From the IMG/VR virus record IMGVR_UViG_3300027743_000065, positions 1-32,545 of that record: 32,545 nucleotides of DNA; one strand, 5' to 3'. Source of the DNA: a virus. The notes under the pieces are model-generated. The model was not told where the DNA came from. It worked only from the letters and a program-made list of their open reading frames with translations, and ran no database searches. Below, in pieces: positions 19,162 through 32,545 of the stretch (its first letter is position 1; every line of letters starts with the position of its first letter). Made by a program: the position numbers and the translations under genes.

Positions 19162-20009
19162 GCTTTTGCGTCCGGATATTCATAAAGAGCGTCCCTGCCG
19201 ATTACGTCAGGACACCCCCTAAAATTGACATAATTACTATAGGCCTTACAAGTAACTTCCCTCTTATCACAGCCCTTCCAAATATCTATCGTATCACCGT
19301 TCGCAATCGTGAACGGGGCCAACGTATACAAAGAGACTGTACCGTCCACGGTCGAAGTTTTAATTTCGTATGTTACACCAAGGTTGGCGCCTGATGTAAA
19401 TGTAACTTTCCCCTCGTCAAATACGTTAGCGGCTGAGTATATAATCCCCGTCGTCGTGAATGTTTTCTGATTCACGGCTACGTCGATTGCCCCCGATTGT
19501 TTGACGAGGGTTAAATCGTACCCACATCGGGTGTCGCCAAAATCGGCATCACATTCGGGACTAATGAGTCGTAATATATTTTGATCAAGAGCACTAGCAA
19601 GTCCCCTCAAATCGGCGATATACTTATCGTCCTCCATCCTTATCTCACCGATCCATCCTCTCTGTAATTTAATAATTCCCATGGTGAGATCCGCCCAATT
19701 GACCGTAAATACATAAATAGCCGCGTTCACGTATTTTTGAGCACGAATGTCATTCGCCGTAATGGCGGCGCTATCAAGGATGCTTGTAATCTCTTGGTTA
19801 TTCACCCCAAGATCTATATTCTGTACAAGGTTCGTACGGTCGTATCCCGTATTCGCTTTATACACGACCCCATCGTAAGTTAAATTACGATCGTGGTCAG
19901 TAAACCCAAGCACGGTTTCATCCTCACGGACGATTTTCCAGCATGTTGCCAATGTGGTTACTCGTCCAGCAATATGTGTGCCCAACTCAGACGAGCAACT
20001 CTTCGTCAT
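19158..20009 (-). CDS. DUF2163 / phage BR0599-like tail hub protein
   Basis: This 283-aa protein matches GTA orfg13-type hub proteins. The N-terminal part (ETVLGFTDHDRNLTYDGVVY) is the DUF2163 pattern, and the C-terminal part has the BR0599-type signature SPECDADFGDTRCGYDL, then GCDKREVTC and FRGCP. The cysteines of these segments are the kind that bind metal; phage lambda gpL carries an iron-sulphur cluster at the equivalent place in its tail tip. The start at 20009 is preferred because GGAGGA lies 5 nt before it; an in-frame ATG at 20054 lies deeper inside the DUF2460 gene and has no such site. It overlaps that gene by 23 nt and the NlpC/P60 gene by 4 nt. Confidence 0.88.
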   Translation of the reverse strand: MTKSCSSELGTHIAGRVTTLATCWKIVREDETVLGFTDHDRNLTYDGVVYKANTGYDRTNLVQNIDLGVNNQEITSILDSAAITANDIRAQKYVNAAIYVFTVNWADLTMGIIKLQRGWIGEIRMEDDKYIADLRGLASALDQNILRLISPECDADFGDTRCGYDLTLVKQSGAIDVAVNQKTFTTTGIIYSAANVFDEGKVTFTSGANLGVTYEIKTSTVDGTVSLYTLAPFTIANGDTIDIWKGCDKREVTCKAYSNYVNFRGCPDVIGRDALYEYPDAKA

Positions 20010-20661
20010 CTTTTTCCTCCACAATCGTGATTTGTCCCCATGTATGATTATCATAAAATTTCATCGAGGCCTTCATGTGATCAACCCCAAAACGGCAATG
20101 ACAATAAAACTCGAATGAAGCTTTTACAAGATGACCATTAGCCGGTAAATGACCGGCAACAAACGTGATTACACCGAGATTATAGTTGACGGTATAATCG
20201 ACCCCCTCTTCCTTGACCACACTATTGACCGTTACCGACCATGGGTTAGTTTCACCATCCCAGAATGAGGCTGAAGTCGACGGATTTATTTTTGTTAAAG
20301 TTCTTGTATAGGTATAAGCACCGGATGTATATAATTTTTTACATTGAAATTGGGTCAACGACCCCGTGCCCGTGCCAAGTGTTTGTAATGTAGCATAATC
20401 GTCTGCCCAATCGTGAAACTTGAACGAATAACCTTGACCATATCGAGCATAAAAGAAAGCCAATAAGGCTTGAAATTCCGTCTCACTTTTTACCGCATGG
20501 GCAACATCCCACTCACCCCTTGCAATCGACCAATCGATATTACGACGGTCGCGACCTCCCTTGGGGTCGAAGATTGTGGTTTTAAATTTAGGCCCCCCGA
20601 CCGCGTCCTGCGCGATCGAATCAGGAAATACCACATCATGAAATGATGCTGGAACGGCCAT
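19987..20661 (-). CDS. DUF2460 distal tail protein
   Basis: The protein (224 aa) shows the DUF2460 landmarks: FHDVVFPDSIAQDAVGGPKF at the N-terminus, RNIDWSIARGEWDVAHAVKS, then FFYARYGQGYSFKFHDWADD. In GTA-like tails this protein (orfg12) is the distal tail ring that joins the tube to the hub. It lies 2 nt after the tape-measure stop and overlaps the DUF2163-like gene, which is the conserved order. The C-terminus (IVEEKDDEELLV) falls in the overlap and also supplies the ribosome binding site of the next gene. Confidence 0.92.
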   Translation of the reverse strand: MAVPASFHDVVFPDSIAQDAVGGPKFKTTIFDPKGGRDRRNIDWSIARGEWDVAHAVKSETEFQALLAFFYARYGQGYSFKFHDWADDYATLQTLGTGTGSLTQFQCKKLYTSGAYTYTRTLTKINPSTSASFWDGETNPWSVTVNSVVKEEGVDYTVNYNLGVITFVAGHLPANGHLVKASFEFYCHCRFGVDHMKASMKFYDNHTWGQITIVEEKDDEELLV

Positions 20662-20663
20662 GA

Positions 20664-23651
20664 TTAACTCCTATTCCGCGCGCGCATGAGCGCATACGTT
20701 TGATCTTCATCGATTTGTTTTTTTGATTTCACAAATGTGCCCGGATCGGGCGTGATAATATTCCAACTATTATTGATGTTAAATACACGCTCCCCACCGC
20801 CACGTACTTCGACGGGGATTCTTTCCCCCGAAGGAATGGGAAGAAAAGCTTCCCTACGGTACTTTTCCCCCGCAAGGATCGTTGGGCCATTTGTAATTCC
20901 GGACGTGCTATGTGTACGCGTGGGCATGGAACCTCCGTCGCCAAACATCATAGATTTTGGGATCCACACGCCCCCGTTCGCCGCGGGCATGGGGCCAATA
21001 AAATTGGGTGATCCCGGTGCAGGAGCTTTACCACCGCCGAATAATCCGCCCAACCAATTGAATAATCCTCCACCACCCTGAGCCATATTTCCTAAACCCC
21101 CTGTCATATCTCCCCCCATCATACTCGCCATCATGGGACGCACGACCATGGCCCGAGTGATCTCCGATACCATCATATCGGAGAATGCTTTCATGTCGAA
21201 TGTTCCTTTTGTGATAAACTCCGTGAGCATGTCTTCAAGTCCCGAAAAAGCCTTTGACATAACGTCATAGGTTGTCTTTGCCGCGTCCGTCGCGGCATCT
21301 TTATAGTCCTTGAACGCAACCTTAGCACCCGACAGCCAAGAATTTTCTTGTAACATAAGTTGTTTCTCTTGTTCCTGTTGACGCTTGAACGCCGCCGTCA
21401 TGGCGTTCGCATAAGTCGTATGATTGATCAAACCTTCACCGACCAATTTATGAAGTTCCTTCACCGTCTTATTATATTCAGCCATGGCGTCGAACTGGCG
21501 CCGATATCCATCCGCCAATTGCTCCAAGGCCTCTTGTTGTTTCTTTAACTCTTCGTTGCGACGCTTGAGTTCGTCCGCGTTTATTTTTGCAACATCTGCG
21601 TTATATTTCTTTTCAAGACTGATAAGAACCTCATTTGTGGCGGATCTCATAGCTTTCTCTTGCTCCGCCGAAAGCCCCTTTGTTGCCAACCGATCAGTAA
21701 GCGCCCGTTCGAGTTGCAACTTTCCTTCATCATATTCAAATTTAGTCTGACTAAGTCTTTGTTCCACACCCTCAAGTCCTAACTGCACGGACTCATGTTC
21801 ATACCGGCGGCGAAGATCCGACATACTTTGAATATAATCCTTATACATGTCGGCGGCTTTTTCTTGTTCCTGTTTTTGTTTCTTTTGTGTTTCCTCATCG
21901 CTAGCCATATTAATAGGTGTTGGAGTTCGAGTAGGATCGGCATATCGACCTAATCCTTTTTTACCTATATTCTCAATCGACCGTTGATAATCATCTAATA
22001 CTCCTTTGCGCAATTCCTCAAAATATGAAGCCGAAGGAGGAATAATTTGGCCCTCGATCATTACGCCCGAGAGTTTGCCGATAGTCTTATTGTATATATC
22101 AGCAATCCCATTTAACGTATTTGTAAAAACGGTGATTACTTTCGACAGGTCCTCGGCCATATTAATCTGAAATAAATTAAAGGTAGTAGTCATCCCTGTC
22201 ACTTTAGCTTCCCAAATATCCGATACCATATTAATAGTATCAGCAAGTTTTTGGAGCAAATAAATTGTTTCATCGATCGGAAGGTGCGCTAATAATCCAT
22301 TCGAATCCTCTACCGCCTTGTTCCACTCAATCTGGGCTCCGGTTACAAGAGAGATAACGTGAGCCATGATCCGAATAATTCCTGAAATGGCGCTGAGGAC
22401 CGCGGTGAAGCCCGCGCCCATCCACTCATCGTTCGCATCGACCCATTTCTCCGTCGCCTGTGTGACGGCAATCAATGAATCTAAGAACTGACTTGTTCCC
22501 TCCGAAGTCATAAGTCCGAGTTTCACGAGCACTTTATCAAGGCTATTCATCAACGTGTCCCACTTGGCGTTGACCGTGGTCTTATAATCAGCCCATGCTT
22601 TTTCCGTCAAACCAAGCGATTGTTTCGTTCCGTCAAGCATCATTTTGACGCCAGCAAAGTCCTTGGCTTGTAGGGCAAGGATCCCCTGCATGGCTTCGAT
22701 CGACCCGTAGAACTTACCGTAGTTAACCCCAGCATCATTCGCGGCCTTGTTGAGCATCTCCAATGCCGGTATCAAACCCTTCGTCTGAATCAATTGAATC
22801 GCGGTTTGGTAACCCATATCCTTCAGGGCTTTTGACATCTCTTCCGTCGGGTTGATTAACTTTTGGAATAGGTTCTTCAATGACGTGGCGGCGGTATGAG
22901 TATTCCCCGCCGTTAATGTAACTTGAGCAAGTGCCGCACCAAGTTCAAACGATGTTGCACCCGCGTTGTGGGCGATTGCGGATACCTCACCTATGACTGA
23001 GGCGAGTTCCGCAAACGTAGTTTGGCCGTAATTTTCAATTACGAATAATAGATCTGATGCTTGGGTCGCGGTTTTAATCTCGCCCTCGAATGCGGCCATC
23101 ATCTTTGTGAGCGCAAGAATAGCCGTGGCTTGGTCGAGGTGTGCGGCTTTGGAGGCCTTTGATGCGACGGTAAGAAGATCAAGCGCATCGGCTCCCGCTT
23201 TTGCACCCGATGATATAGCATTATAATAGCCCGCGGCAAGATCGGATGGGCGTCCGAGGGCAGAGTCCAATGCCATAAGATCTTCCCTCATTTTGCCGAA
23301 AGGTGTACTTGTTACACGACCTAGATCGATGATGATAGATTGAAATTCCGCGGCACGACGGATAGCAGGAATAAGAGCCGCGGTCATGGCCGCGACCCCC
23401 ACGGTTACACCTGCGATAGCAAGACCGAGAGGGATCATGGTGCTACGTAGAGCCGTCGTACTTACGCCCATCTTTTCCAAGGTCTGCATGGCTCGACCCA
23501 TTTTTCCTTGGTAGGCGTCAGTCTTCGTACCGGTCTGATCGAGTTGCATACCTAACTTGGCGAGAGTACCCTCGATCTTTTTTACTTTTAAAGATCCGGA
23601 ATCATCTACGTCGAACTCTAGGACGAGGGGTGGTAACTGGCTGACTGCCAT
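20664..23651 (-). CDS. Tail tape measure protein
   Basis: This 995-aa protein sets tail length and is likely ejected ahead of the DNA. Residues about 80-350 form the TP901-type core (FQSIIIDLGRVTSTPFGKMR, AGYYNAISSGAKAGADALDL, SFELGAALAQVTLTAG). Then come hydrophobic helices and a long coiled coil (about 580-760, many Glu, Lys and Gln). Near the C-terminus AFSGLEDMLTEFITKGTFD matches the lambda-type tape-measure C-terminal domain. The start at 23651 (MAVSQLPPLVLEF) is preferred over 23714, because the longer form would only add basic residues overlapping the frameshifted chaperone; its ribosome binding site is weak. It overlaps the end of that frameshift product by 50 nt, as lambda T overlaps H. 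Confidence 0.93.
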   Translation of the reverse strand: MAVSQLPPLVLEFDVDDSGSLKVKKIEGTLAKLGMQLDQTGTKTDAYQGKMGRAMQTLEKMGVSTTALRSTMIPLGLAIAGVTVGVAAMTAALIPAIRRAAEFQSIIIDLGRVTSTPFGKMREDLMALDSALGRPSDLAAGYYNAISSGAKAGADALDLLTVASKASKAAHLDQATAILALTKMMAAFEGEIKTATQASDLLFVIENYGQTTFAELASVIGEVSAIAHNAGATSFELGAALAQVTLTAGNTHTAATSLKNLFQKLINPTEEMSKALKDMGYQTAIQLIQTKGLIPALEMLNKAANDAGVNYGKFYGSIEAMQGILALQAKDFAGVKMMLDGTKQSLGLTEKAWADYKTTVNAKWDTLMNSLDKVLVKLGLMTSEGTSQFLDSLIAVTQATEKWVDANDEWMGAGFTAVLSAISGIIRIMAHVISLVTGAQIEWNKAVEDSNGLLAHLPIDETIYLLQKLADTINMVSDIWEAKVTGMTTTFNLFQINMAEDLSKVITVFTNTLNGIADIYNKTIGKLSGVMIEGQIIPPSASYFEELRKGVLDDYQRSIENIGKKGLGRYADPTRTPTPINMASDEETQKKQKQEQEKAADMYKDYIQSMSDLRRRYEHESVQLGLEGVEQRLSQTKFEYDEGKLQLERALTDRLATKGLSAEQEKAMRSATNEVLISLEKKYNADVAKINADELKRRNEELKKQQEALEQLADGYRRQFDAMAEYNKTVKELHKLVGEGLINHTTYANAMTAAFKRQQEQEKQLMLQENSWLSGAKVAFKDYKDAATDAAKTTYDVMSKAFSGLEDMLTEFITKGTFDMKAFSDMMVSEITRAMVVRPMMASMMGGDMTGGLGNMAQGGGGLFNWLGGLFGGGKAPAPGSPNFIGPMPAANGGVWIPKSMMFGDGGSMPTRTHSTSGITNGPTILAGEKYRREAFLPIPSGERIPVEVRGGGERVFNINNSWNIITPDPGTFVKSKKQIDEDQTYALMRARNRS

Positions 23652-24464
23652 GATCGTCTCGTTTCTGCTTCTCTTGTTGCTCTCGTTCTTGACGTTCCTT
23701 TTCTTGAACGCCAAGTACTATCTCCTCTACGACACGTGCTTGATCGAAGAGAGATAGTTGAAAATCAGGGCCGAGTCCTTCCAGTTCCATGACCCTAAAA
23801 AATACGGCCCAATCGAACGTCCCATTCGCATTTCGGCAAAGCCACGTACGTTCTAATATGCTATGAATGAGCATATTATCATGATTGATTTGTGGCATTT
23901 CGTTCGGGCACGTATGGCACGGTAACCGTAGTCGGTGCCCGAGTTTTTCCTCTTTCTTTTTATATAATAGTTTACAAACCTCGTTACAATGGCGAGGTCC
24001 GAAGTTGACGCTACGAGAAGCAATCCAACTCCAGACCTGCTTTAGTTTCCCATTGCAACATCTTCTTTTTTGTCCTCAGGCACGTCCTCCTCGTCATCAA
24101 GGACGTGCGTCTCATCCTGGAACATTGCGAGCATGACGAGATTCGCGAAACTTGCACACCTTTCCGAAAGTAATTTTTTATTCTCAGGGGTGCATGGTAG
24201 GCTATGGCCATCTGGCCCACAAATATCATCCCAATCAACCACGGACGTGACGAAGCGTTCATTATCTCTAGCCGCGACATTGATTACGGCCTTACCCTTA
24301 TTGTGTTTGGTGTACCGTTTCTCAATTGCGAACTCTTGAGTACGAGACAACTTACGGTAAAAAATAGTAAAATGACTTTTACTGTAAACCGTACCTTCGA
24401 ATGCTTTGTTCGTGTTATCGATCGATTGGTTTTCTGACCTAGTTAAATCTAATATTAATGTCAT
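23602..24464 (-). CDS. Tail assembly chaperone, long form made by -1 frameshift (G-T type)
   Basis: The 140-residue upstream frame (24464-24042) continues after a -1 slip at 24045-24051 into an open frame that begins with CTA at 24045 and ends at 23602. This adds 147 residues and gives a predicted 287-aa product. The added part starts LKQVWSWIASRSVNFGPRHC, contains four Cys near LPCHTCPNE and ends in a charged coiled-coil tail. The added frame has no usable start codon for its first 49 residues, and a TGA closes it just upstream of the slip window. The two-product arrangement and position before the tape measure match lambda G and G-T, which chaperone the tape measure during tube polymerisation. 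Confidence 0.85.
23995..24051 (-). promoter_or_regulatory. Programmed -1 ribosomal frameshift signal
   Basis: On the minus strand the last codons read ATG GGA AAC TAA, giving the heptamer G GGA AAC (24051-24045) in the correct X-XXY-YYZ frame directly before the stop. After a 6-nt spacer (TAAAGC), AGGTCTGGAGTTG (24038-24026) pairs with CAACTTCGGACCT (24007-23995) over 13 consecutive pairs (two G-U), closing an 18-nt loop. Slippery site, spacer and stem are the standard parts of a -1 frameshift signal; lambda uses GGGAAAG in the same gene pair. Confidence 0.88.
24042..24464 (-). CDS. Tail assembly chaperone, short form (G type, 140 aa)
   Basis: This is the normal product of the upstream frame, ending at TAA 24044-24042. 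It begins MTLILDLTRSENQSIDNT, is mixed alpha/beta and ends in a very acidic tail (LDDEEDVPEDKKEDVAMGN). A GGAG site lies 9 nt before the ATG. It follows the tail tube gene and precedes the tape measure, as the short chaperone does in nearly all siphoviruses. In lambda the short form is made in large excess over the fusion. No sequence family was recognised with certainty; assignment rests on position and the frameshift architecture. Confidence 0.85.
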   Translation of the reverse strand: MTLILDLTRSENQSIDNTNKAFEGTVYSKSHFTIFYRKLSRTQEFAIEKRYTKHNKGKAVINVAARDNERFVTSVVDWDDICGPDGHSLPCTPENKKLLSERCASFANLVMLAMFQDETHVLDDEEDVPEDKKEDVAMGN

Positions 24465-24493
24465 TGGTGGTCTCCTTGTAAATAGATTATATA

Positions 24494-25957
24494 TTAAGCA
24501 TCATACGCCGGATTCAGATTGACTAAAGTTACCTTTATTGCTGTTGCATCCGCATCATCTTGGTAATATGCCTGGAAATCAAGATCAAGAACAACCCCCT
24601 GCGGACCAGCAATATCAGGTGAAGAGAACTGATACTCAAGTTCATCAATATTAAATGTCAACGAACTTTCTCCATCAGGATGCGTGAACGCTAGTTCAAG
24701 TGAAGTCTCCGTATCTTCGTTCGCTTTTTCAAGAATTGTGTCGTCTTCGAATACAGCCGAGATCGACCCACTGACACCGGCGATACCTGACGGAAGTCTA
24801 CGACGAACACCACCACCGCCGATCGTGAACCCGTCACCATCGAGATTATTTGATACATTCATGGAGAGTGTACGTAACAATTCGGTCGATACTCCACCCT
24901 CCTTTGCTGAACCATCCGCCATCTCATAACGTGAGAATGTATGCTCAGCTATATCGATCGCCCCACCGCCAATATAATCAGCATTATGAAGAATGGCTTG
25001 TACAGTTTTTGTAGATACTTGACCAGGGTCGACCGATCCGCCACGAGTAGTTTTAGCCGTCATATTTGAACCATCCGTCTTTACGGTAATGAAAGCTACC
25101 TTATAATCCGTGTCATAAATGATCATATCATCAACGACCGCGTCCGCTTGGGCAGCCGAAAAATCTACATCCCCTGCCGCACCGATCGTGATCGTGGAAG
25201 CAACTTTCACATCCGTTGATTTTACGTAAGTTGCCCCCATAATATCAAATGTAGCGATCAGTTGGTCCCCCGCTCCGTTTGCGGTAATTGACATACCGTT
25301 AATCTTGAGTCCTTTGAACAGTTGATAAATTGGGATATCGTGCGAACAATCGTGGGTCTCAAGAACAAATGACGGAAGTTCATCACAACTATTCACCTTA
25401 AATACGTGAGAGAATATAATCCTCTTGATTGATACGACCGCTTTTGCTGGGCTAGCGGCCACATCCACTACTGTATCAAGTCCATACGCATCTACGAGCA
25501 CACACACGGTCGTGCTTGTGATCGATTTAATATACGCGGTGACGTTCGTATTATAAATAATTTGATCACCCACCTGCCATGCCGTTTGTTCGACCGATAA
25601 CGTAGCTACTCCTGATGATATTACAATATTCGGTGCCCCCGTCTTAATATCGTCCGGCGTCGATGGAGTAGTCGTCGGATTACCAAGAAGCATAGCGAGA
25701 TGATGTCCAAAGTTTACACGATCAACGGGTACGACAAGTTGCCCCGTTACATCCTTGTTCCCCTTGAACGGTTTCATCGGATTCCGATTACCTCGTAACG
25801 TCGGGGACGTGTTCTTCGGGGTAACCGCCTTAATTGTGCATGAGTTATACGGGATCTTACGAGGTTTCTTTAAGGCCTCGGATTTTAGCGTCTTATAAGA
25901 CGCCTCACGGTCCCAGTACAATGTCGTGGATGCTCCACGTGCTTGTTCGTTTGCCAT
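24494..25957 (-). CDS. Major tail tube protein with two inserted beta domains
   Basis: The protein (487 aa) resembles phage tail tube proteins: LPSFVLETHDCSHDIPIYQL, then LFKGLKINGMSITANGAG and LIATFDIMGATYVKS match the tube-core pattern, with more core strands near the C-terminus (SLTFNIDELEYQFSSPDIAG). Two similar blocks interrupt the core at about residues 106-176 and 255-308, each with a G-x-A pattern and D-x-IIY (VGDQIIYNTNVTAYI and VDDMIIYDTDYKVAF). These explain the large size compared with the usual 170-350 aa and probably protrude from the tail surface. GGAGG lies 6 nt before the ATG. It lies between the tail terminator and the chaperones, as expected. Confidence 0.85.
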   Translation of the reverse strand: MANEQARGASTTLYWDREASYKTLKSEALKKPRKIPYNSCTIKAVTPKNTSPTLRGNRNPMKPFKGNKDVTGQLVVPVDRVNFGHHLAMLLGNPTTTPSTPDDIKTGAPNIVISSGVATLSVEQTAWQVGDQIIYNTNVTAYIKSITSTTVCVLVDAYGLDTVVDVAASPAKAVVSIKRIIFSHVFKVNSCDELPSFVLETHDCSHDIPIYQLFKGLKINGMSITANGAGDQLIATFDIMGATYVKSTDVKVASTITIGAAGDVDFSAAQADAVVDDMIIYDTDYKVAFITVKTDGSNMTAKTTRGGSVDPGQVSTKTVQAILHNADYIGGGAIDIAEHTFSRYEMADGSAKEGGVSTELLRTLSMNVSNNLDGDGFTIGGGGVRRRLPSGIAGVSGSISAVFEDDTILEKANEDTETSLELAFTHPDGESSLTFNIDELEYQFSSPDIAGPQGVVLDLDFQAYYQDDADATAIKVTLVNLNPAYDA

Positions 25958-25969
25958 TTCTTGCCTCCG

Positions 25970-26401
25970 TTACGTGATAATATCGAATGGTATATTATAA
26001 TTCTCTTGGTACCACCCCTTACGGGCTTCATCCACTTCCGTGGGTGACATGGTAAAGGAGGTTCCAAACTCTAATCGACAATTCCCTTCCGTGCCGACTA
26101 AAAACTTCTTACGCACGAGAAGTGTATCGAGCGTATCGGCAATTGTTTCTATATCCCCATGTCCCGTGCCTTTGCGCACGAACATTTGGATCGTCAACGT
26201 ACATGAGTGTCGTTCACCCAATTTCTGGGCAAGGTTTAATGTCTCATGTGTGGAATCCGCGGCGAACACAAACAAAGCAATATATTGTGTCAAGGCGTCA
26301 GTGACTAACTCCCTATTCATGAATTGGATACTAGTCAATGTCCATGACGTGTTGAACAAGGTCTCGATCTTTCGGTATGCTAGATTATTTATATTAACCA
26401 C
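25970..26401 (-). CDS. Tail terminator protein
   Basis: The protein (143 aa) sits between the gp10-like gene and the tail tube, where siphoviruses keep the terminator that caps the tube and joins it to the head. It has the expected size and alpha/beta pattern: helical N-terminus, then NRELVTDALTQYIALFVF, SCTLTIQMFVRKGTGHGD, a helix IADTLDTLL and a C-terminal strand pair. The G-x-G-x-x-E motif after the third strand (GTGHGDIETIADTLD) fits terminators of the gpU/tail-completion type. Assignment rests on position and secondary-structure pattern rather than a strong signature. It overlaps the upstream gene by 8 nt. Confidence 0.7.
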   Translation of the reverse strand: MVNINNLAYRKIETLFNTSWTLTSIQFMNRELVTDALTQYIALFVFAADSTHETLNLAQKLGERHSCTLTIQMFVRKGTGHGDIETIADTLDTLLVRKKFLVGTEGNCRLEFGTSFTMSPTEVDEARKGWYQENYNIPFDIIT

Positions 26402-26840
26402 GGTATCCCACCGCCTGTCTCCAAAGTTTAATGGCTCTTTCTCGACCCAGCACGTAGATCCCCTTTGGGGCTTGTTTGCTGTGGCCCATTTCTAATTTCC
26501 ACGCGTAAGCGACGGAGTTAGAAATATAAACGGTAAACTTCTTTTGATTTCCCCATCCCTTTTTTATTTGATCGACAACCGACTTTGCTTTTGTGATGCT
26601 CGTGGCTGCATTATGTAACGTACATTTCGGCGTGATCAGGGTTTTTCCCGACGTGTTGAGACTACCGATATTAATTTCATGACTTGCCCTGTACCTCCCC
26701 GTATCGACCGGTGAGATATAAACCATGTACGTGTACGTCGAGAATATAATCTCCCTCGCGATCTTGTATTGTTGGTCGATCGACTGCGAGGCTACAGCCC
26801 CGAACACCTTGAGTATATCGTCCATGTTGTGGTGTTTCAT
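26394..26840 (-). CDS. HK97 gp10-like neck/tail completion protein
   Basis: The central signature YISPVDTGRYRASHEI and the later YISNSVAYAWKLEMGHSKQ with APKGIY are the two hallmarks of HK97 gp10-like proteins: 'SPVDTGRLRxS' and 'YAxxLExGxSxQAPxG'. These proteins sit in the neck between head closure and tail terminator. The ATG at 26840 overlaps the upstream stop (TGATG) and has GGAG 6 nt ahead, so I prefer it over a GTG one codon earlier. Product length is 148 aa. No odd features were seen. Confidence 0.9.
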   Translation of the reverse strand: MKHHNMDDILKVFGAVASQSIDQQYKIAREIIFSTYTYMVYISPVDTGRYRASHEINIGSLNTSGKTLITPKCTLHNAATSITKAKSVVDQIKKGWGNQKKFTVYISNSVAYAWKLEMGHSKQAPKGIYVLGRERAIKLWRQAVGYRG

Positions 26841-27235
26841 CACAGTCTCCTAGCAATCACCATCCACGTTAAAGTTGTGGCGCCTAAACTTCTCGGATTA
26901 ATATCGACAATCTGATACTTAAGTCCACCGATCGTAAGCGTGTCCTTGGATGAAAGATCCGTGGGCACAGTACCGTTCACACGACTGATCGTTACAAAGA
27001 GATCTCCCCGTTCTAGGATCTCTATCTTGGATACATCCTCCAACGTGGCTGCCCGAATGGCCGCGGTCACAGTGTAAGTTGCGGTTGTGTCGGTCGATTT
27101 ACCCGTCGATGGAACGAACGCGCCCCTTGTGATACGGGTGATCGTTATACTTGTTGTAAATGTTAATCCTGGGACCATGGCCCCACTGAAAACATTCTTT
27201 ACGATATTACTGATGACCGTGTTAATAACAGGCAT
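26840..27235 (-). CDS. Head closure / head-tail joining protein
   Basis: The protein (131 aa) has a beta-rich sequence (TFTTSITITRITRGAFVPST, ATYTVTAAIRAAT, LTIGGLKYQIVDINPRSLG) typical of small head-closure proteins such as HK97 gp9, lambda gpFII or SPP1 gp16, which seal the connector after DNA packaging. Y-Q-I-V-D-I-N-P before the last strands fits their common C-terminal pattern. It precedes the gp10-like gene, in the usual order. Its own ribosome binding site (GGAATAATT) is weak. Assignment is from pattern and synteny. Confidence 0.72.
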   Translation of the reverse strand: MPVINTVISNIVKNVFSGAMVPGLTFTTSITITRITRGAFVPSTGKSTDTTATYTVTAAIRAATLEDVSKIEILERGDLFVTISRVNGTVPTDLSSKDTLTIGGLKYQIVDINPRSLGATTLTWMVIARRL

Positions 27236-27237
27236 AA

Positions 27238-27486
27238 TTATTCCACGTAACTTTTCTTTCCCATGAAGGTCCTTATTGTAACAACCTCCTGGAACGCATT
27301 TGAATCAAAATCGTCGGCCGCAAGTTCAAATAACTTTTTCGCATCACTTACTTCGACTTCGTTATCGACCACGGCCGTTTGAAATGACATCAATCTTCCG
27401 AATAACTTACTGTCCACGTCCTCAAACTCGTCGAAAAATCCTTCGTTACTATCCTTCTTTCCCCCTATCCATCGCTCGGTCATCAT
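27238..27486 (-). CDS. Small acidic hypothetical protein (82 aa)
   Basis: The sequence begins MMTERWIGGKKDSNEGFF and is acidic and mostly helical (FEDVDSKLFGRLMSFQTAVV, then VSDAKKLFELAADDFDSNAF). AAAGGA lies before two tandem ATG codons, so the exact start could be 27486 or 27483. No membrane segment, signal or metal motif is visible. It lies inside the head-tail connector genes with 2-nt gaps on both sides, so a structural or chaperone role in the neck is possible. I do not recognise a family. Confidence 0.75.
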   Translation of the reverse strand: MMTERWIGGKKDSNEGFFDEFEDVDSKLFGRLMSFQTAVVDNEVEVSDAKKLFELAADDFDSNAFQEVVTIRTFMGKKSYVE

Positions 27487-27488
27487 GA

Positions 27489-27707
27489 TTATCCTTTCTC
27501 GTATTGAATCCCATTGTCCCCCGGAAATGGTTCTAAATGGGGATTATTGCCCAATGAGATCTCATCGGGAATCCCATCGGGAAATGCTGCACATGTATAG
27601 TTACCCGTATCCGTCGTAAATGAACCATCCTTTTCTACCGGAGCCGTATTAGCGACTCCAAAGAAAAATTTACATTTACGAATATGGCACTTCGGTTCCA
27701 TCATCAT
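27489..27707 (-). CDS. Small Cys-containing protein after the MuF gene (72 aa)
   Basis: The sequence has PKCHIRKCKFFFGV near the N-terminus and YTCAAFPDGIPDEISLG, ending with PGDNGIQYEKG. I recall this pattern ('C-x4-C ... C-x-AFPxGIPxEI ... PGDxGI') from short uncharacterised proteins next to MuF or head-completion genes of other phages. Three cysteines could bind a metal with a further ligand such as His8, or across a dimer. GGAGG lies 6 nt before the ATG, and the gene overlaps the MuF stop by 4 nt, so their translation is coupled. The function is unknown. Confidence 0.75.
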   Translation of the reverse strand: MMMEPKCHIRKCKFFFGVANTAPVEKDGSFTTDTGNYTCAAFPDGIPDEISLGNNPHLEPFPGDNGIQYEKG

Positions 27708-30328
27708 GTCGATCCTCCGTATACGATCTCCTTTATAAAGTCCTCTAATTCTTTCGGGAGTAGTCCACGGTCCCCATACTCTGGATGAAGATAAGCCGCA
27801 AAAGCCTCCGCGAACATCTCCAATTCCGTCGAATCAGCATAACGAGAGATCTTATCCTTTATTATACCCTGATTTTTGAACTTTGTAAATAGTTCGAGAA
27901 CCTTAACTTTTTGTCTCTCTGTTATAATATTATGATAAATATAATGACCATATTCATGAGTCGTAACGGTCTCTATATCCTGGCCGATCGACCACTCACC
28001 AAACTTTAACGTGCCTCTTTGACGCTTAAGCAATGGGGCGCGTAATTCGATCAATCTCGTATTATTTGCAAATGTGTATGAATAGGCTCCTACTGCATTC
28101 CGTGACCCAGTTATCGGACCCGATTTTAATTCAAATAATTTAAGTCTACGAGTTTGGCGTACATTGGCCAACTTTTCATACAAAAATTCCGACTTATTCC
28201 AGATACTTGTTAATGCTTTACCGATACCATTATAAATTTCCTGAGCATTCGTTACCCCCTCCTCCGCCTTGCTCTTTGTCATCATATTAAACGTGTTCTT
28301 AAGTTCAACAAGTGACCAGGTCGCTTTTTCTTCGATCTTCATGATCGGTGCGGGTAACACACTCTCGGCAACCTGCTTATATCCGATGTACTTTTTGTAT
28401 TTTGCGAGAGCGTCTATATCCGTGTCGAAATCCATGCCGCCTGACCATTCACGATCACGGAGGATCCACTTACCGATCGATTGCGAGAATGCATCAGGAC
28501 CTCGCCCCATTGCTACATTACGCTCAAGATTCGCGAGATCCCAGATCGATCGTGGATCGACCTCGCTCACGAGCCGTCGTGCATAATTATATTCTTCCGG
28601 CGTAAATACCCGTGTCAGGGTATCTCTCTGCTCAATCAACCAATCACTAATATCGACTCGCAACTTATCCCATTCTTCTTGCTTCGGGATAAATCCCGCC
28701 CGTGCCCAGGCATAGGATCCGTCCTCTAATCCGGCCGTCAATTTAATACGTCGTACTCCTATGTCTTCATACAAACTCATCCAATTTCGTGCTATAATTT
28801 TAGCAATTCCTTGACCACGGAATCTTGGGTCAAGTTCAAGTATCGTATGATCGACAACCTTACGGTTGTTGGCCCCGCGAAAGATTTCACGTATAACGTG
28901 AACATCATTTGCAAAGCGATCAAGGCTCGTTCCGTTCTCCACGAGTCCTGCGTTCATAATAAAAGTGTTTCCGCTACGATACAAACTAACATTCTTTAAT
29001 GTGAACTTGTCCTCTAATCCATTACCGAAACCCTTATAGAAATCACGCGGTGGGATTCCGATCAGGTCATTGTATAACGTGGCTAGTTGGTCATCTCTAC
29101 GATCAAGCGTAAATCCTGCATCCAATAAGTTGTTCGTCGTAAACCTTGGATTTGTAACGGGTTTCCCGAACGGTGGTGGAACCTCTTTTGGTACCGGTGC
29201 AGCTACCATGGGCTCGATCTTCGGTTTGACTTTCGGCTCAACCTTCGGCTTAATTATATCCTCCGGTGTTGCTACAATCGGTGGTTTCTTTTCGATCGGA
29301 CTTAATAAGTCATTAACCGAGAGCACACGATTATTGACCACCATATCCTCGACCCGTAATTTACCCTCCTTATACAACTTGTAACGTGCAGGACCGAGGT
29401 ATTGTTTCTGCCATTCATCAGGTTGGTTGGCCAAAAAGTCTTTAAATTTCGTTTTTGCCGGTACCTGATCGACCTCCTCAATCTTCCATGTCGTCGAGGT
29501 CGTACCATCTTTATGATGAACGATATGCTTCGATTCTTTCTTAATCGACGGGCGCGTTCGCTCGTCGTCATAGTCGAAACGTGTTCGCGGCACGCGAATC
29601 GATCTACAAAGAACGTGAAGGGGAGGTGACGGTAAATCTGCTAGTTTCTTGGCGATCGTTCCGTCATAATTGGCGCAAATTAGGGTCGTGCGGATATCAA
29701 GTGTTGCTACGAATATGAAGTCTTCGATAATATCCGCATTCTCCTCATAGACCTCATCACGCGCCTTACTTGACACATGGTTGAAGGTCGTTCTTGCAAT
29801 CATAAGGGCGCCTTTTCGGCCTATACCCTCTATGTTACGTAAACGTGTCACAGCTTGCGGGACGGTCTCAGCAAGAATCACGGATTGAGCCATCTCATTT
29901 GTGATTCTATGTTTTACTGACGCAAGATTATTATCGATAAAATCTGTGACCGTTCCTCCCGGTAAAGGATCCGACATGATCACGCCGATTTGGCGTGCCG
30001 GTAGGGTGTAGGGTGTGTCGGCAAGGTCTTCTTTCTTTAGCGACATGAACTGTCGTTTCATGCCATTATATTCCGATTGAATAACCTTGGCCGATTGTTC
30101 ATCGATAATATCGGAGTATTTCTTTGTAGTCTCAGCAAGAACACCGGTCAATTCAAGTTGGGCACGTTCGTATCGCATGCGAGAGAATGAGCCGCTCGTC
30201 TCCGCTACCCTATTCGTGACAGAGGACAGGGCGTCTTGTAGTTGTTTGAATAAATCTTGAGACATCCCATTGGCGGCCGATTCGACCGCTAACGTGCGCC
30301 TCAAAATATACTCTTCCAACTTGGTCAT
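27704..30328 (-). CDS. MuF-type minor head protein fused to GNAT-like and HExxH metalloprotease-like domains
   Basis: This protein (874 aa) is far longer than a usual MuF protein (250-450 aa). Residues 100-250 are the MuF part: IARTTFNHVSSKARDEVYEE, then DIRTTLICANYDGTIA and PPLHVLCRSIRVPR. Residues 290-345 match the MuF-associated helical tail (QYLGPARYKLYKEGKL). A Pro/Lys linker (358-390, KPKVEPKVKPKIEP) follows. Residues 450-560 look like a GNAT acetyltransferase, with ELDPRFRGQGIAKIIAR (CoA-binding loop around 504-509) and YAWARAGFIP. Residues 665-874 contain HEYGH (791-795) and a downstream Glu pair in TELEMFAEAFAAYL (Glu837, Glu841), as in gluzincin-type proteases. MuF proteins enter the cell with the DNA, so the extra domains may be delivered effectors. 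Confidence 0.85.
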   Translation of the reverse strand: MTKLEEYILRRTLAVESAANGMSQDLFKQLQDALSSVTNRVAETSGSFSRMRYERAQLELTGVLAETTKKYSDIIDEQSAKVIQSEYNGMKRQFMSLKKEDLADTPYTLPARQIGVIMSDPLPGGTVTDFIDNNLASVKHRITNEMAQSVILAETVPQAVTRLRNIEGIGRKGALMIARTTFNHVSSKARDEVYEENADIIEDFIFVATLDIRTTLICANYDGTIAKKLADLPSPPLHVLCRSIRVPRTRFDYDDERTRPSIKKESKHIVHHKDGTTSTTWKIEEVDQVPAKTKFKDFLANQPDEWQKQYLGPARYKLYKEGKLRVEDMVVNNRVLSVNDLLSPIEKKPPIVATPEDIIKPKVEPKVKPKIEPMVAAPVPKEVPPPFGKPVTNPRFTTNNLLDAGFTLDRRDDQLATLYNDLIGIPPRDFYKGFGNGLEDKFTLKNVSLYRSGNTFIMNAGLVENGTSLDRFANDVHVIREIFRGANNRKVVDHTILELDPRFRGQGIAKIIARNWMSLYEDIGVRRIKLTAGLEDGSYAWARAGFIPKQEEWDKLRVDISDWLIEQRDTLTRVFTPEEYNYARRLVSEVDPRSIWDLANLERNVAMGRGPDAFSQSIGKWILRDREWSGGMDFDTDIDALAKYKKYIGYKQVAESVLPAPIMKIEEKATWSLVELKNTFNMMTKSKAEEGVTNAQEIYNGIGKALTSIWNKSEFLYEKLANVRQTRRLKLFELKSGPITGSRNAVGAYSYTFANNTRLIELRAPLLKRQRGTLKFGEWSIGQDIETVTTHEYGHYIYHNIITERQKVKVLELFTKFKNQGIIKDKISRYADSTELEMFAEAFAAYLHPEYGDRGLLPKELEDFIKEIVYGGST

Positions 30329-30331
30329 AGT

Positions 30332-30874
30332 TTACCTTACAAACTCGAATGTTCCACCATGTCTCGCATCGTCCGATAACCAGGGGCGCAAGAGCGCTTC
30401 GACCGCGGCGAGGGATCCCCCAGCCGCCTGCTCAAGTAACTCAGTATCGATTGTCTTAGATAATCCAAATTCTAAGTCCACAGTCTGATACACCCCAATA
30501 CTTTTGACCTGCTTCGCAGACCCCGATTGACCCGTAGTAGTATCCTGGTCGAGGTATTGCGCTTTAATCATCTCGAATTGTGCATACTTTATCTTACAAT
30601 GAATGATCGTGGTATCCACGTCATTGAGTCGAGGAAATTCGCGTGCTTGTTCGTCGACACCGTAATAAGGACCACGCAACTTTGTACTTATTAATGGGTA
30701 TCGGTCGATAGCTCTCGCGGCCGAGACTATTCTTTGAATCTTTATAGCTTCCGTAAATGCCGTCCAAATGGGGTTGAATTGTACATCGGCGAGAAAATAA
30801 TCATCCGCCTCCGCCAAGGTCCCATAACTATTAGCATTTACCCCAGCCACAGTTGTATCAAGCGATAGGACCAT
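30332..30874 (-). CDS. Head-tail adaptor protein, DnaT-like family
   Basis: The protein (180 aa) begins MVLSLDTTVAGVNANSYGTL and continues AEADDYFLADVQFNPIW, matching the 'ANSYxTLAEADAYFxxR...W' pattern of the DnaT-like phage family. AARAIDRYPL and REFPRL match the later 'ATRYIDR' and 'WPR' positions. Family members are thought to be connector (gp6-type) adaptors under the portal; the DnaT name is historical. GGAGG lies upstream and the start overlaps the previous gene by 17 nt. Lying before the MuF gene rather than after it is unusual compared with the common portal-MuF-scaffold-capsid-adaptor order. Confidence 0.8.
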   Translation of the reverse strand: MVLSLDTTVAGVNANSYGTLAEADDYFLADVQFNPIWTAFTEAIKIQRIVSAARAIDRYPLISTKLRGPYYGVDEQAREFPRLNDVDTTIIHCKIKYAQFEMIKAQYLDQDTTTGQSGSAKQVKSIGVYQTVDLEFGLSKTIDTELLEQAAGGSLAAVEALLRPWLSDDARHGGTFEFVR

Positions 30875-31217
30875 TTTTCATCGCCTCCTCTTGATCACGA
30901 TAATCTTTTACCATTGACATGTGGAACCGGCAAATATCATAACGATGACTAAACGCTTCTTCTAATCTTGCCACCGTTACGCCCTGGTGGCGTTGCTCAT
31001 CGGCGATACTTTCTATTTTCTTTATCAGCCCGTTCGATATTTGTAATTGCATGTTAGAAACCTGTATCGTCACCGACTTTTCAAGGCCGTCTACCTTCGT
31101 CGATAATTTACCGAAAGTGAAGGATATGATTGCAACATTAATCAATACAGTTAGAAATAATACGCACAAACTTATAATGATCGGGATAATACTAAATGTA
31201 TTTACAGCTTGTTCCAT
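30858..31217 (-). CDS. Membrane-anchored coiled-coil protein (119 aa)
   Basis: One strong N-terminal membrane helix (SIIPIIISLCVLFLTVLINV, residues 9-28, with hydrophobic residues continuing to about 35) is followed by a coiled coil (KLSTKVDGLEKSVTIQVSNM through IESIADEQ) and a charged C-terminus. This N-in or N-anchor topology resembles inner-membrane spanins and hemolysin-XhlA-like lysis proteins, but the position between a glycosyltransferase and a head-tail adaptor is not a lysis cassette. The upstream gene overlaps its start by 26 nt. No family is recognised. Confidence 0.7.
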   Translation of the reverse strand: MEQAVNTFSIIPIIISLCVLFLTVLINVAIISFTFGKLSTKVDGLEKSVTIQVSNMQLQISNGLIKKIESIADEQRHQGVTVARLEEAFSHRYDICRFHMSMVKDYRDQEEAMKNGPIA

Positions 31218-32079
31218 TAAATACTCCCATGCCAGCCAAAAGGTTAATAGTTAACCCTGACCGAATTTCATCCGGACTCCATTGAGTATACGCGACTCTG
31301 TTCAAGAAATCTTGAACAATTGTTTTATTAATTTGTATTGAATCTGTTAACCCACTATAATCGGATTGACAACAAGAAGCATACGGGGCCTCTTTATCAC
31401 AAAATACCGGTACCCCCGCGATCATGGCTTCAAACGCGATCCCGGACGAGTGAGTTACGACCGCTCTCGCATGCGTAACCGCTTCCATAGCCGTATTATG
31501 TATAACTTGTACGTGATGACATGATAATTGATAAAGGTCCGCCGTTCCCGGATGCGGTTTCCATACGATCGGTTTACTCGTATATTCACGAATTTTACGA
31601 ATTTGGTGTACCGCCCACGCCTCGACGTTCTCGAAACCCTTAGGTGGGTAGACTGAGCCCGCGAGCAATATATAATTTTCTTGCTTACGAGGAACACTTT
31701 CGGCGATAAGGCCAATTTCCTCAGCCCTATCAGGAGGGCATTCCTGCTCCATAAATTTATAACGATCGGTAACGAAGATAGTCCTGTACGATCTATTGAC
31801 CGGCCAGTATGAATCATCAAGGATGAACCGGCAACATTCGTGGGACGCGAGAACCTCTGAGTGACGTGGGTATGAACCGTTCACTACAACCGCGTCGCAT
31901 ACCTCTTTTCGACCGCTGGGGAACGACTTCAGGTCGATCCAGTCGATTGAGCAACCATGACAAATACACCCCGCCGCGAACAATTGTAGCGTGTCGGTAT
32001 TACGGGCTTCTTCAGAACTCAATCCAAGGAGACTACTAGTAGGTTTTACGAGTTGGCGACCATACAGAACTATCTTCAT
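31192..32079 (-). CDS. KpsS/KpsC-like glycosyltransferase
   Basis: The protein (295 aa) resembles the capsule-synthesis (Kdo-transferase) branch of GT-B-like glycosyltransferases. The visible marks are YILLAGSVYPPKGFENVEAW, the K-x-H-P type motif in SKPIVWKPHPGTADLY, and VVTHSSGIAFEAMIAGVPVF, matching the 'SSxxxFEAxxxGxPV' sugar-nucleotide site of that family. No membrane segment or signal peptide is present, so it acts in the cytoplasm. It could glycosylate virion proteins or change host surface sugars during infection. Its place among head-tail genes suggests a virion target, but that is inference. The ribosome binding site is weak (AAGG). It overlaps the next gene by 26 nt. Confidence 0.75.
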   Translation of the reverse strand: MKIVLYGRQLVKPTSSLLGLSSEEARNTDTLQLFAAGCICHGCSIDWIDLKSFPSGRKEVCDAVVVNGSYPRHSEVLASHECCRFILDDSYWPVNRSYRTIFVTDRYKFMEQECPPDRAEEIGLIAESVPRKQENYILLAGSVYPPKGFENVEAWAVHQIRKIREYTSKPIVWKPHPGTADLYQLSCHHVQVIHNTAMEAVTHARAVVTHSSGIAFEAMIAGVPVFCDKEAPYASCCQSDYSGLTDSIQINKTIVQDFLNRVAYTQWSPDEIRSGLTINLLAGMGVFNGTSCKYI

Positions 32080-32117
32080 TTTACCTTACCAATTGTGTTT
32101 GATCTATAAGACTAATT

Positions 32118-32137
32118 TGAGTGTAGCTTCTCACTCA
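32118..32137 (-). repeat. Small hairpin at the stop of the truncated right-edge gene
   Basis: TGAGTG (32118-32123) and CACTCA (32132-32137) can pair around an 8-nt loop. It overlaps the stop codon of the right-edge gene and lies about 40 nt before the glycosyltransferase start. The stem is short and no T-run follows, so it is a weak terminator candidate at best. Confidence 0.3.
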
Positions 32138-32545
32138 GGAGGTTCTTCATATCTGATGAACAGCTTAATGTCGTATCCCGGGGTCACGGTCGATACAAGA
32201 TCGGCACGAAGTACCCCTAATCCCTTGGCGTCTATAGGTCCGATGATCCCGACTCGATCGATCACGGCCTGAGGGATACGTAACGGTAATAATGTATCAG
32301 GAGGTTGATTAATCGAAGCCCCGCCATTTAACGTTACGTACATTCCGCTGGGGAACATGGTCCCGTTATTTGCCGCTACCGTCGGCGTGGTCGTATTGAT
32401 TACACTAATAAATATTTTCGGTGAACCTTTAATTTCAAACGACGCACCTTCGATATTCGTACCGCCAATCCCGGTAAAAGTCGTCGTAGTTTCACTGATT
32501 TTAAATACACCCGTGAAATCGGACGAGGCCCGAATCTCAGATGTT
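32131..32545 (-). CDS. Truncated structural protein, C-terminal part (137 aa visible)
   Basis: The frame is open from the window edge (first full codon ACA at 32544) to TGA at 32133-32131. It is beta-rich and has no charged helices: EIRASSDFTGVFKISETTTT, then GTNIEGASFEIKGSPKIF, VPGMFPSG-like turns, and a C-terminal DAKGLGVLRADLVSTVTPGY. The C-terminal 75 residues could start at an internal ATG (32358), but the frame continues upstream without a stop, so that start is probably not used. Position and composition suggest a head decoration or other virion surface protein, but no family is recognised. The 5' part is outside the window. Confidence 0.75.
   Translation of the reverse strand, partial: TSEIRASSDFTGVFKISETTTTFTGIGGTNIEGASFEIKGSPKIFISVINTTTPTVAANNGTMFPSGMYVTLNGGASINQPPDTLLPLRIPQAVIDRVGIIGPIDAKGLGVLRADLVSTVTPGYDIKLFIRYEEPPE

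Follow-up and report, generated by a model that had tools for sequence, protein, structure and literature searches.

The minor head protein of this virus is a MuF chain extended by a GNAT-like module and a zincin, and its gene is followed by two small genes, one of which belongs to a widespread family. We consider it probable, on balance, that together these form an enzyme effector load carried in the capsid, the delivery, activity and targets of which we infer. GNAT and zincin domains are already known as cargo of MuF or polyvalent proteins; the novelty is the module made of cargo and small partner genes. The window analysed is a 32,545-nucleotide stretch of viral DNA (IMG/VR record IMGVR_UViG_3300027743_000065).

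The chain is encoded by a single 874-residue open reading frame on the minus strand (27704-30328), the plus strand being full of stops in the same frame. The MuF core, Pro/Lys linker, GNAT-like motif and HEYGH motif described by the initial annotation are all present in this frame, and the residues it named (R504, G505, G507, A509, H791, E792, H795, E837 and E841) are correct. Shuffling the protein 5000 times produced HExxH in 1.0% of cases, a [RQ]GxG-type motif in 1.1%, and HExxH followed by a Y-x6-E-x3-E tail in 0.02%. Residues 1-341 (29306-30328, minus strand) are the MuF minor head protein core: residues 142-242 matched PF04233 above the Pfam cut-off (E 5.5e-7), residues 4-332 matched phrog_241, ‘head morphogenesis’ (E 8.5e-59), and residues 4-341 shared 33% identity with a 349-residue MuF protein from a syntenic locus, L198. 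The basic Pro/Lys-rich linker that follows (residues 342-400; 29129-29305, minus strand; pI 9.7) has three PP pairs between the MuF and GNAT profile matches.

The GNAT-like module spans residues 401-645 (28394-29128, minus strand), with a profile core at 427-562, RGQGIA at 504-509, GSYAWARAGF at 537-546 and a tail motif within 617-633. Its assignment to the GNAT family, as initially proposed, is supported at the sequence level: a profile of 50 homologues matched GNATs among solved structures (best E 2.6e-5), and 25 of the 50 matched PF00583 (Acetyltransf_1; best 4.3e-8), the window protein alone scoring 0.044, below the cut-off. Our own GNAT profile, of which the window is itself a member, matched the window protein with an E-value of 9e-28, and the acyl-CoA loop [RQ]xxGx[GA] is present in the window. 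Across an alignment in which near-duplicates were kept, the loop was for the most part preserved, position 504 being Q or R in 52 of 58 sequences, G505 retained in 48 and G507 in 53, but A509 was found in 35 of 58 and the RGxG loop was partly missing in some relatives. A tail motif, written after viewing these same sequences (ILRDREWSG in the window), followed the GNAT core in 44 of 56 distinct segments, compared with a shuffled mean of 1.5; judged from sequence, the module probably ends at about residue 645. The structural model was mediocre (pLDDT 74, pTM 0.55, strand 5 unformed). A Foldseek search with it placed mostly GNATs on top (best E 0.013), while the VIA list gave Z values of at most 6.4, its five top rows (Z 5.5-6.4) being non-GNAT.

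Residues 646-874 (27707-28393, minus strand; HEYGH at 791-795, Y830, E837, E841) clearly form, by profile and model, a predicted peptidase of the lethal-factor/Pro-Pro endopeptidase (M34-like) fold, in agreement with the metalloprotease first suggested. The homologue profile matched the lethal-factor/Pro-Pro-endopeptidase group among solved structures (E 5.5e-8), and the model (pLDDT 78, pTM 0.72) gave a fold match with Z 13.6 (rmsd 3.2 over 176 residues) and one to PPEP-1 with Z 11.5. Homologues had been retrieved with the patterns E[MG]FAE[AV]F[AS] and Y[AT]W[AL][RK][KA]G[FY], so that conservation of E837, E841 and the YAW motif is built into the pattern-found rows, whereas HExxH, Y830 and RGxG lie outside the patterns. 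HExxH was kept in all 21 rows of the zincin alignment, near-duplicates included, Y830 and E837 in 20 of 21 each, and E841 in 20 of 21 with D in the other. The domain thus combines the M34-like fold with HExxH and a downstream Tyr and Glu (E837, inside the retrieval pattern); E837 would be the third zinc ligand and Y830 the catalytic Tyr. The ATLF family of Pfam was matched by 12 of 20 zincin members, and none of the 10 Pfam families matched by these 20 at E ≤0.1 was, by name, a polyvalent MPTase model, a type for which 12 clades have been described (PMC5512222).

Joining MuF, GNAT and zincin in one chain was initially described as not a standard architecture. It was found in two of 76 mapped proteins (the window and L041), nearly all of them selected for carrying GNAT or zincin, and a further protein (L081) has GNAT and zincin on another head-protein base with an N-terminus of head-maturation/VG15 type; the arrangement is rare but not unique. 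Both domain types have established cargo roles. The same GNAT family was joined to MuF, at either end, in 23 of the 76, L066 and R7M being one and the same phage; cultured examples are Alteromonas R7M, Pseudomonas Lucjan and AIIMS-Plu-RaNi, and Microbacterium Jera. In L060, L064 and L069 the GNAT was joined to portal proteins, so the portal is a second GNAT anchor at the same vertex. Zincin occurred as its own gene in L008, L061 and L079, and at the N-terminus of MuF in L017 and L022; in L061 and L079, GNAT, zincin (profile E 1.4e-12 and 2.3e-14) and the small gene p72 described below were adjoining separate genes. These GNAT and zincin module types occur in varied orders, also beside ART and NUDIX domains. 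Among the papers listed by our literature searches we found none on MuF-GNAT fusions, and a search linking Pro-Pro endopeptidase with phage and capsid gave no paper at all.

A setting in a head gene cluster is supported, the MuF gene being surrounded by terminase, portal, major head protein, Ad1, Hc1 and Neck1. The head-tail adaptor Ad1 lies upstream (30332-30874, minus strand; phrog_477, E 1.3e-15) and the head closure gene Hc1 downstream (26840-27235, minus strand; phrog_161, E 3.7e-10). Two small genes stand between MuF and Hc1: p72 (27489-27707, minus strand; 72 residues), whose start overlaps the MuF stop codon and is shortly preceded by GGAGG, and p82 (27238-27486, minus strand), which encodes an acidic 82-residue orphan (pI 4.4). 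The initial annotation had passed over both of these genes. No match to p82 was found in phages, and a scan of viral contigs that detects close relatives only returned its own phage alone. Locus L198 is syntenic with the window (identities of 59% for the major capsid protein, 45% for Ad1, 33% for MuF, 31% for Hc1 and 30% for Neck1), yet its MuF core lacks cargo, p72 and p82, and Hc1 starts 60 bases after MuF. Cargo and both small genes are thus present or absent together in this one syntenic pair. The 64,533-bp contig ends in 123-bp terminal repeats and gave no match to PF00589 or PF00239, models that cover tyrosine and serine recombinases and leave other routes to lysogeny possible.

The p72 protein has CCCH and AFPxGIP motifs and matched phrog_33375 (function not assigned; E 2.2e-6) and no Pfam family; its best match among solved structures (E 0.0029, over 25 residues of an RNA polymerase III subunit) was taken as chance. 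At mapped loci p72 adjoined 15 of 20 zincin genes versus 1 of 47 others (12 of 17 versus 1 of 39 after clustering at 70% identity), and it was out of reach at 5 of the 20 zincin loci and at a MuF-ART-GNAT protein (L085). Such counts suggested a zincin-specific immunity protein, an idea weakened by a scan starting from p72, in which ART and HNHP cargo appeared too. One strict pattern recovered p72 relatives in 404 confirmed viral-contig stretches, of which the best 80 were kept and 79 analysed, the window's own phage (L192) being dropped; L118, L119 and L126 are the same contigs as L029, L028 and L024. Within these 79 of the best 80, an ORF with zincin, other HExxH, ART or HNHP motif lay just upstream of p72 in 67, and an HExxH ORF ended at most 1.5 kb upstream in 45, 41 of which the zincin profile matched. 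Final profile labels for the same set, in-sample for ART and HNHP since those profiles were built from its members, were zincin 39, ART with zincin 2, ART 12, HNHP 10, ART with HNHP 1, HExxH only 3 and none 12. By eye, L120, L122 and L196 among the unlabelled rows resemble PARP-type ARTs, and L138 and L186 look cargo-less. A likeness of the HNHP domain to JAB-type peptidases was considered and set aside, its profile giving nothing convincing among solved structures.

As a control, 80 of 498 confirmed loci found with the MuF core were taken and 76 judged, with L211, L228, L241 and L263 dropped for a contig end or too little room. Fewer than 40 residues followed the core in 75 of the 76 (L201 and L223, with an N-terminal GNAT, among them), and p72 followed none of these 75, although these MuF genes are the nearest to the window core and phage lineage and cargo status are therefore not separated. 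The one remaining judged control, L250, extends far beyond the core at its C-terminus (353 residues, HELFH) and was also without p72 in reach. In cultured phages, two queries found p72 in 6 and 7 of 50,697 records and a third in none. Flavobacterium phage lotta8-2 has a MuF protein with zincin (gp028; E 1.7e-10) followed by p72 (gp029); the Flavobacterium isolates comprise 38 virulent phages, on LMO6, LMO8 and LMO9, together with a single temperate one obtained from LMO6, and the available text of their description offers no proteomic proof for the ‘structural protein’ label of lotta8-2 (PMC7077304). In Brevibacillus phage Jenst, gp116 carries HEIGH two genes before p72 (gp114); the zincin profile misses gp116 at default filters and gives a weak match (E 7e-4) once filters are switched off, and no mass spectrometry for it was found in the available part of PMC4909266.

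We propose a cargo module of about 2 kb that comprises the linker, GNAT, zincin, p72 and p82 and lies after the MuF core and before the head-closure gene. The gp7 protein of SPP1 is a MuF protein located near the portal, inside the head. By analogy, the MuF core would tether the chain at a site in the head close to the portal, and the linker would let the enzymes hang into the DNA space. The chain would be packaged and would exit, whole or in pieces, with the DNA, and early in infection the GNAT may acetylate, and the M34-type zincin cut, host proteins. Zincin, ADP-ribosyltransferase and HNHP-motif cargo are all accompanied by this one family, so p72 could be a general helper of MuF cargo, acting as a chaperone, a docking factor or a factor that keeps the cargo inactive. 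More tentatively, p72 may be a general partner of effectors borne in the capsid: a single family of small CCCH proteins would service MuF cargo of unlike chemistry, in the way that adaptors or chaperones assist secreted toxins, and would move with that cargo as a unit which head clusters gain or lose while otherwise staying the same. Many small ORFs behind MuF toxins that have been regarded as immunity genes might then be loading or silencing factors, and the module might also serve integrase-less phages to hit the host at entry.

The main rival to delivery of both enzymes, which we regard as rather unlikely, is that the zincin is a processing enzyme which, ahead of ejection or in the course of it, cuts other head proteins or its own chain (for instance at the Pro/Lys linker), leaving the GNAT as the sole true effector. 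Processing of their own chain has been proposed for the zincin-like MPTases of polyvalent proteins, with processing of P1 DdrB as support (PMC5512222). Pro-Pro endopeptidases cut Pro-rich sites, as the substrate peptides in structure titles indicate, and the window linker has its three PP pairs; among the rows listed, however, such pairs do not track zincin, occurring in 4 of 13 MuF proteins with zincin cargo (the window, L016, L026 and L041) versus 3 of 9 with GNAT only (Jera, L056 and L073). With no clean association of this kind, self-cleavage at a Pro-Pro linker was set aside as a candidate, and the zincins found as separate genes or N-terminal of MuF also speak against a processing role. 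The initial annotation had not raised processing.

Unlikely, in our estimation, is a MuF polymorphic toxin of the classical kind, with p72, p82 or both acting as immunity proteins that neutralise the enzymes in the producing cell. A precedent of two immunity genes exists in the pneumococcal apk2, which is followed by iapK and aph1 (PMC12226406), and the acidic p82 had no relatives outside its own phage in our scans and is missing where the cargo is missing. It is lysogens that need immunity, however, and the 64.5-kb contig showed no tyrosine or serine recombinase; moreover, p72 is a single family beside unlike catalytic domains, which is more in keeping with a general cargo partner than with a cognate inhibitor. 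More improbable still is a structural or degenerate nature of the added domains, which would then remain in the head throughout: loop departures in some GNAT relatives would agree with decay, but HExxH, which lies outside the retrieval pattern, is kept in every zincin row over large divergence, and the same module types are shuffled in order, also beside ART and NUDIX domains.

How tailed phages deliver enzymes into the cell just as infection begins is a question that is far from settled. If the module is a capsid-borne effector load as we favour, a cargo with a recurring small partner offers a handle on packaging, silencing and ejection. The p72 finding also questions the reading of each small ORF after a MuF toxin as an antidote, and p72 can serve as a search marker for further capsid-borne effectors in viral metagenomes, given its 404 confirmed stretches.

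Among known systems, the MuF polymorphic toxins share with the window an N-terminal MuF domain (here PF04233), a C-terminal, putatively toxic enzyme (here, by profile, the M34-like zincin and GNAT), a head cluster setting and a small ORF downstream; the window differs in having two enzymes per chain, no integrase found and a small-ORF family common to unlike cargo (PMC5576092). In the same source metallopeptidase domains account for 20% of 191 MuF toxins, and the word ‘acetyltransferase’ is absent from its main text (Jamet et al. 2017). Phage polyvalent proteins (Iyer et al. 2017, PMC5512222) likewise place several enzymes in one virion-associated chain, and the window chain has the at least two enzymatic domains, encoded among virion genes, that distinguish them. 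Zincin is their commonest domain, GNAT and ART are also used, and PBECR and 2H are fused to MuF or portal; the window differs in its GNAT-MuF fusion and p72, neither a GNAT-MuF/portal fusion nor a p72-like gene having been found in the available text. T4 Alt, a protein also described in that paper, and similar enzymes are packaged in the head and modify the host. The window enzymes would, like Alt, enter with the DNA and modify host proteins, while Alt differs in being an ADP-ribosyltransferase. Alt is not known to have a MuF anchor. A table row in PMC3482391 assigns lethal-factor-type peptidases to PVC and T2SS and not to MuF. The window zincin resembles lethal factor and Pro-Pro endopeptidase in fold, in HExxH and in the downstream Tyr and Glu; it differs from them in sequence, with about 18% identity over the aligned part, and in being joined to a phage head protein rather than secreted.

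On the minus strand, a single open reading frame of 874 codons fills window positions 27704-30328, and the residues picked out by the initial annotation were all found to be correct in its 874-aa translation. A MuF minor head protein core (residues 1-341, minus strand; 33% identical over residues 4-341 to the complete 349-aa MuF protein of viral contig L198) is followed by a basic Pro/Lys linker (residues 342-400, minus strand), a GNAT-like module and then a zincin. The interpretation placed on these features, a two-enzyme payload entering the host, was upheld in part: support was obtained for both enzyme families (the GNAT by sequence only) and for the rarity of the combination.

A 64,533-bp IMG/VR contig that ends in direct repeats of 123 bp comes from the phage to which the window belongs; where they were compared (window 17707-32545 and the first 52 bases), the two sequences are identical. 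The MuF gene is preceded by the genes for terminase, portal, major head protein and head-tail adaptor and followed by those for head closure and neck. A search of the 64,533-bp contig for tyrosine and serine recombinases gave no hit, and ORFs for a DNA polymerase and for thymidylate-synthase-like and helicase-like proteins were recognised by eye, so the phage looks virulent. Within the head cluster, window ORF 31192-32079 (minus strand) resembles by eye a capsule-polysaccharide or glycosyl-transfer enzyme, and sugar-nucleotide epimerase-like ORFs were seen by eye near the MuF genes of loci L004, L006 and L008. In the window's phage, a 172-aa ORF with HEIIH (L003:4314-4832) that sits between the genes for portal and major head protein gave no PHROG match at 0.001 and is possibly a second small zincin.

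The proposal of a zincin-like domain was borne out. A profile of 20 homologues matched lethal factor (E 5.5e-8), and HExxH was kept in all 21 aligned rows, with Y830 in 20 and E837 and E841 in 20 each, the last two lying inside the retrieval pattern. The ATLF Pfam model matched 12 of the 20 members, the window's own score falling below cut-off. The structural model (pLDDT 78, pTM 0.72; eight of its last ten blocks average >90) aligned over 176 residues with the protease domain of lethal factor (Z 13.6, rmsd 3.2) and gave Z 11.5 against the Pro-Pro endopeptidase PPEP-1, placing the domain in the lethal-factor/Pro-Pro endopeptidase fold.

Taken by itself, the window's GNAT sequence yielded no firm assignment, its match to PF00583 (0.044) falling below cut-off. 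With homologues added, the assignment is good by sequence: PF00583 matched 25 of 50 homologues (best 4.3e-8), and their profile matched solved GNATs with a best E of 2.6e-5 and three chains at E ≤0.001. The structural model is only fair (pLDDT 74, pTM 0.55); the leading Foldseek hits were mostly GNATs, at E 0.013 or weaker, and in the VIA structure-comparison list non-GNAT folds came first. The family motif is GGYAW[AL][RK][AK]G[FY], of which the part from YAW to the end was used for retrieval, and Arg480 was conserved in 50 of 58 rows. A tail motif ending in WxG, defined post hoc from sequences already inspected, occurred in 44 of 56 distinct segments (shuffled mean 1.5). The same GNAT family was also seen in proteins of Glycomyces, Streptomyces, Actinoplanes and other actinobacteria (L098-L112, not L100), ranging from 354 to about 3,600 aa, several extending past the fetched stretch, with up to three GNAT copies per chain. 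In an alignment of 23 GNAT proteins (A6), single members matched 2'-5' RNA ligase/LigT, anti-CBASS Acb1 and peptidoglycan-binding Pfam models, and three matched a ParB-like PHROG.

Three home-made profiles were used to map 76 proteins, some of them near-duplicates and almost all fetched through searches for the GNAT or the zincin. MuF was joined to GNAT in 23 and to zincin in 15, and all three were united in only two, which agrees with the earlier view that the architecture is non-standard: the window (MuF-GNAT-zincin) and L041 (MuF-zincin-GNAT, with an ADP-ribosyltransferase (ART) before the zincin). GNAT preceded MuF in ten rows (Alteromonas R7M and Pseudomonas Lucjan included) and followed it in eleven others, including Microbacterium Jera; portal proteins were joined to GNAT in L060, L064 and L069, which links one and the same enzyme to two different portal-vertex components. 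In L081 the base that bears zincin and GNAT is of head-maturation/VG15 type, and the fragment L086 carries three zincins, ART, NUDIX and GNAT. The MuF-GNAT-zincin combination is rare, yet a reshuffling of recurring parts. MuF proteins with an N-terminal zincin were also observed (L006:4467-7430 and L007:4491-9029); by eye, these appear to bear an insert resembling an intein or HINT domain within the HPNC...CWC stretch of their MuF domain.

L198 and the window show synteny (identities: major head protein 59%, adaptor 45%, MuF 33%, head closure 31%, neck 30%). From the MuF end to the head closure start L198 has 60 bases, whereas the window's MuF core is separated from head closure by a linker and cargo of 533 residues and by two small genes. 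The first, p72, encodes a 72-aa CCCH protein; its start overlaps the stop codon of MuF and follows closely on a GGAGG. The second, p82, encodes an acidic 82-aa protein for which the scans revealed no relative beyond its own phage.

A profile seeded with the window's p72 revealed relatives adjoining zincin genes in loci already fetched. Counted ≤1.5 kb downstream on either strand where there were ≥600 bases of room, p72 was present at 15 of 20 zincin loci versus 1 of 47 zincin-free GNAT loci (after collapsing identical proteins, with the window's phage excluded and three loci dropped for too little room). Clustering at 70% identity gave 12/17 versus 1/39 (Fisher p 1.3e-7, no tree correction). 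The single p72-bearing locus among these 47, L061, has a separate zincin gene directly before p72, as does L079, in which p72 precedes the GNAT gene; at L024, p72 is on the opposite strand.

In a p72-first scan of viral contigs, 404 stretches were confirmed, the best 80 kept and 79 analysed (71 groups at 70% identity, 34 with zincin only). The partner was taken as a same-strand ORF ending ≤1.5 kb upstream, and the C-terminal ends of 33 zincin-less ORFs were inspected by eye. Profiles placed a zincin upstream in 41 stretches, and another three had an HExxH ORF; 13 others had an ART, firmly assigned from sequence (profile match to a solved ADP-ribosyltransferase, E 3.8e-23), and ten an HNHP-motif domain, leaving 12 unmatched upstream for zincin, HExxH, ART and HNHP by profile. 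In L129, L133, L141, L150, L154, L158, L165 and L181 a C-terminal HNHP...SFSxxD domain, carried by MuF-type or similar proteins, precedes p72; a search for a solved relative of this domain found none.

As a control, the best 80 of 498 loci from a scan for MuF cores close to the window's were kept (43 clusters at 70%) and 76 judged. All but one had <40 residues after the core, two of these with an N-terminal GNAT, and p72 was found at 0 of these 75, in a control that mixes phage lineage with cargo. The remaining MuF (L250:559-1161 plus the rest of the ORF) has a long extension and also lacks p72, which counts against a p72-cargo link. This extension comprises a Pro/Lys linker and a C-terminal domain with a different HExxH, HELFH, that our zincin profile does not match; the domain is possibly a third kind of cargo. 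p72 was likewise found at 0 of 16 MuF-GNAT proteins without zincin. On these results p72 accompanies certain cargo, neither MuF as such nor one single enzyme. C7, C12, C39 and H57 were invariant in 17 p72 sequences, which suggests a zinc site. Given this Cys3-His set, the unlike enzymes that share it and its usual position directly after the cargo gene, p72 is best interpreted as a partner of cargo in general. This cargo-linked family is the most surprising part of the analysis and is directly testable.

The window's MuF chain is best read as a capsid-borne load. The core would attach near the portal, where SPP1 gp7 is known to be located (PMC5576092), and the linker would give the enzymes reach; leaving the head with the DNA, they could then act on host proteins, the GNAT presumably by transferring acetyl and the zincin by cutting. 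Detection of one MuF toxin in virions, that of phage StB12, is cited in a passage of the same source (PMC5576092). Instead of or besides attacking the host, the zincin may process its own chain, as a passage on polyvalent proteins proposes for these (PMC5512222).

According to sections of Iyer et al. 2017 (PMC5512222), polyvalent proteins contain MPTase, GNAT and ART domains, and PBECR and 2H domains occur fused to MuF or portal. In the portions of Jamet et al. 2017 (PMC5576092) drawn on here, metallopeptidases occur in 20% of 191 MuF toxins, small ORFs lie downstream of MuF toxins, and virulent phages are without MuF proteins bearing a known toxin domain. Lethal-factor-type peptidases are listed under PVC and T2SS in an excerpt of Zhang et al. 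2012 (PMC3482391). The pneumococcal MuF toxin gene apk2 is described, in an extract of its report, as having two immunity genes downstream (PMC12226406), to which p72 and p82 of the window are, by analogy, a possible parallel.
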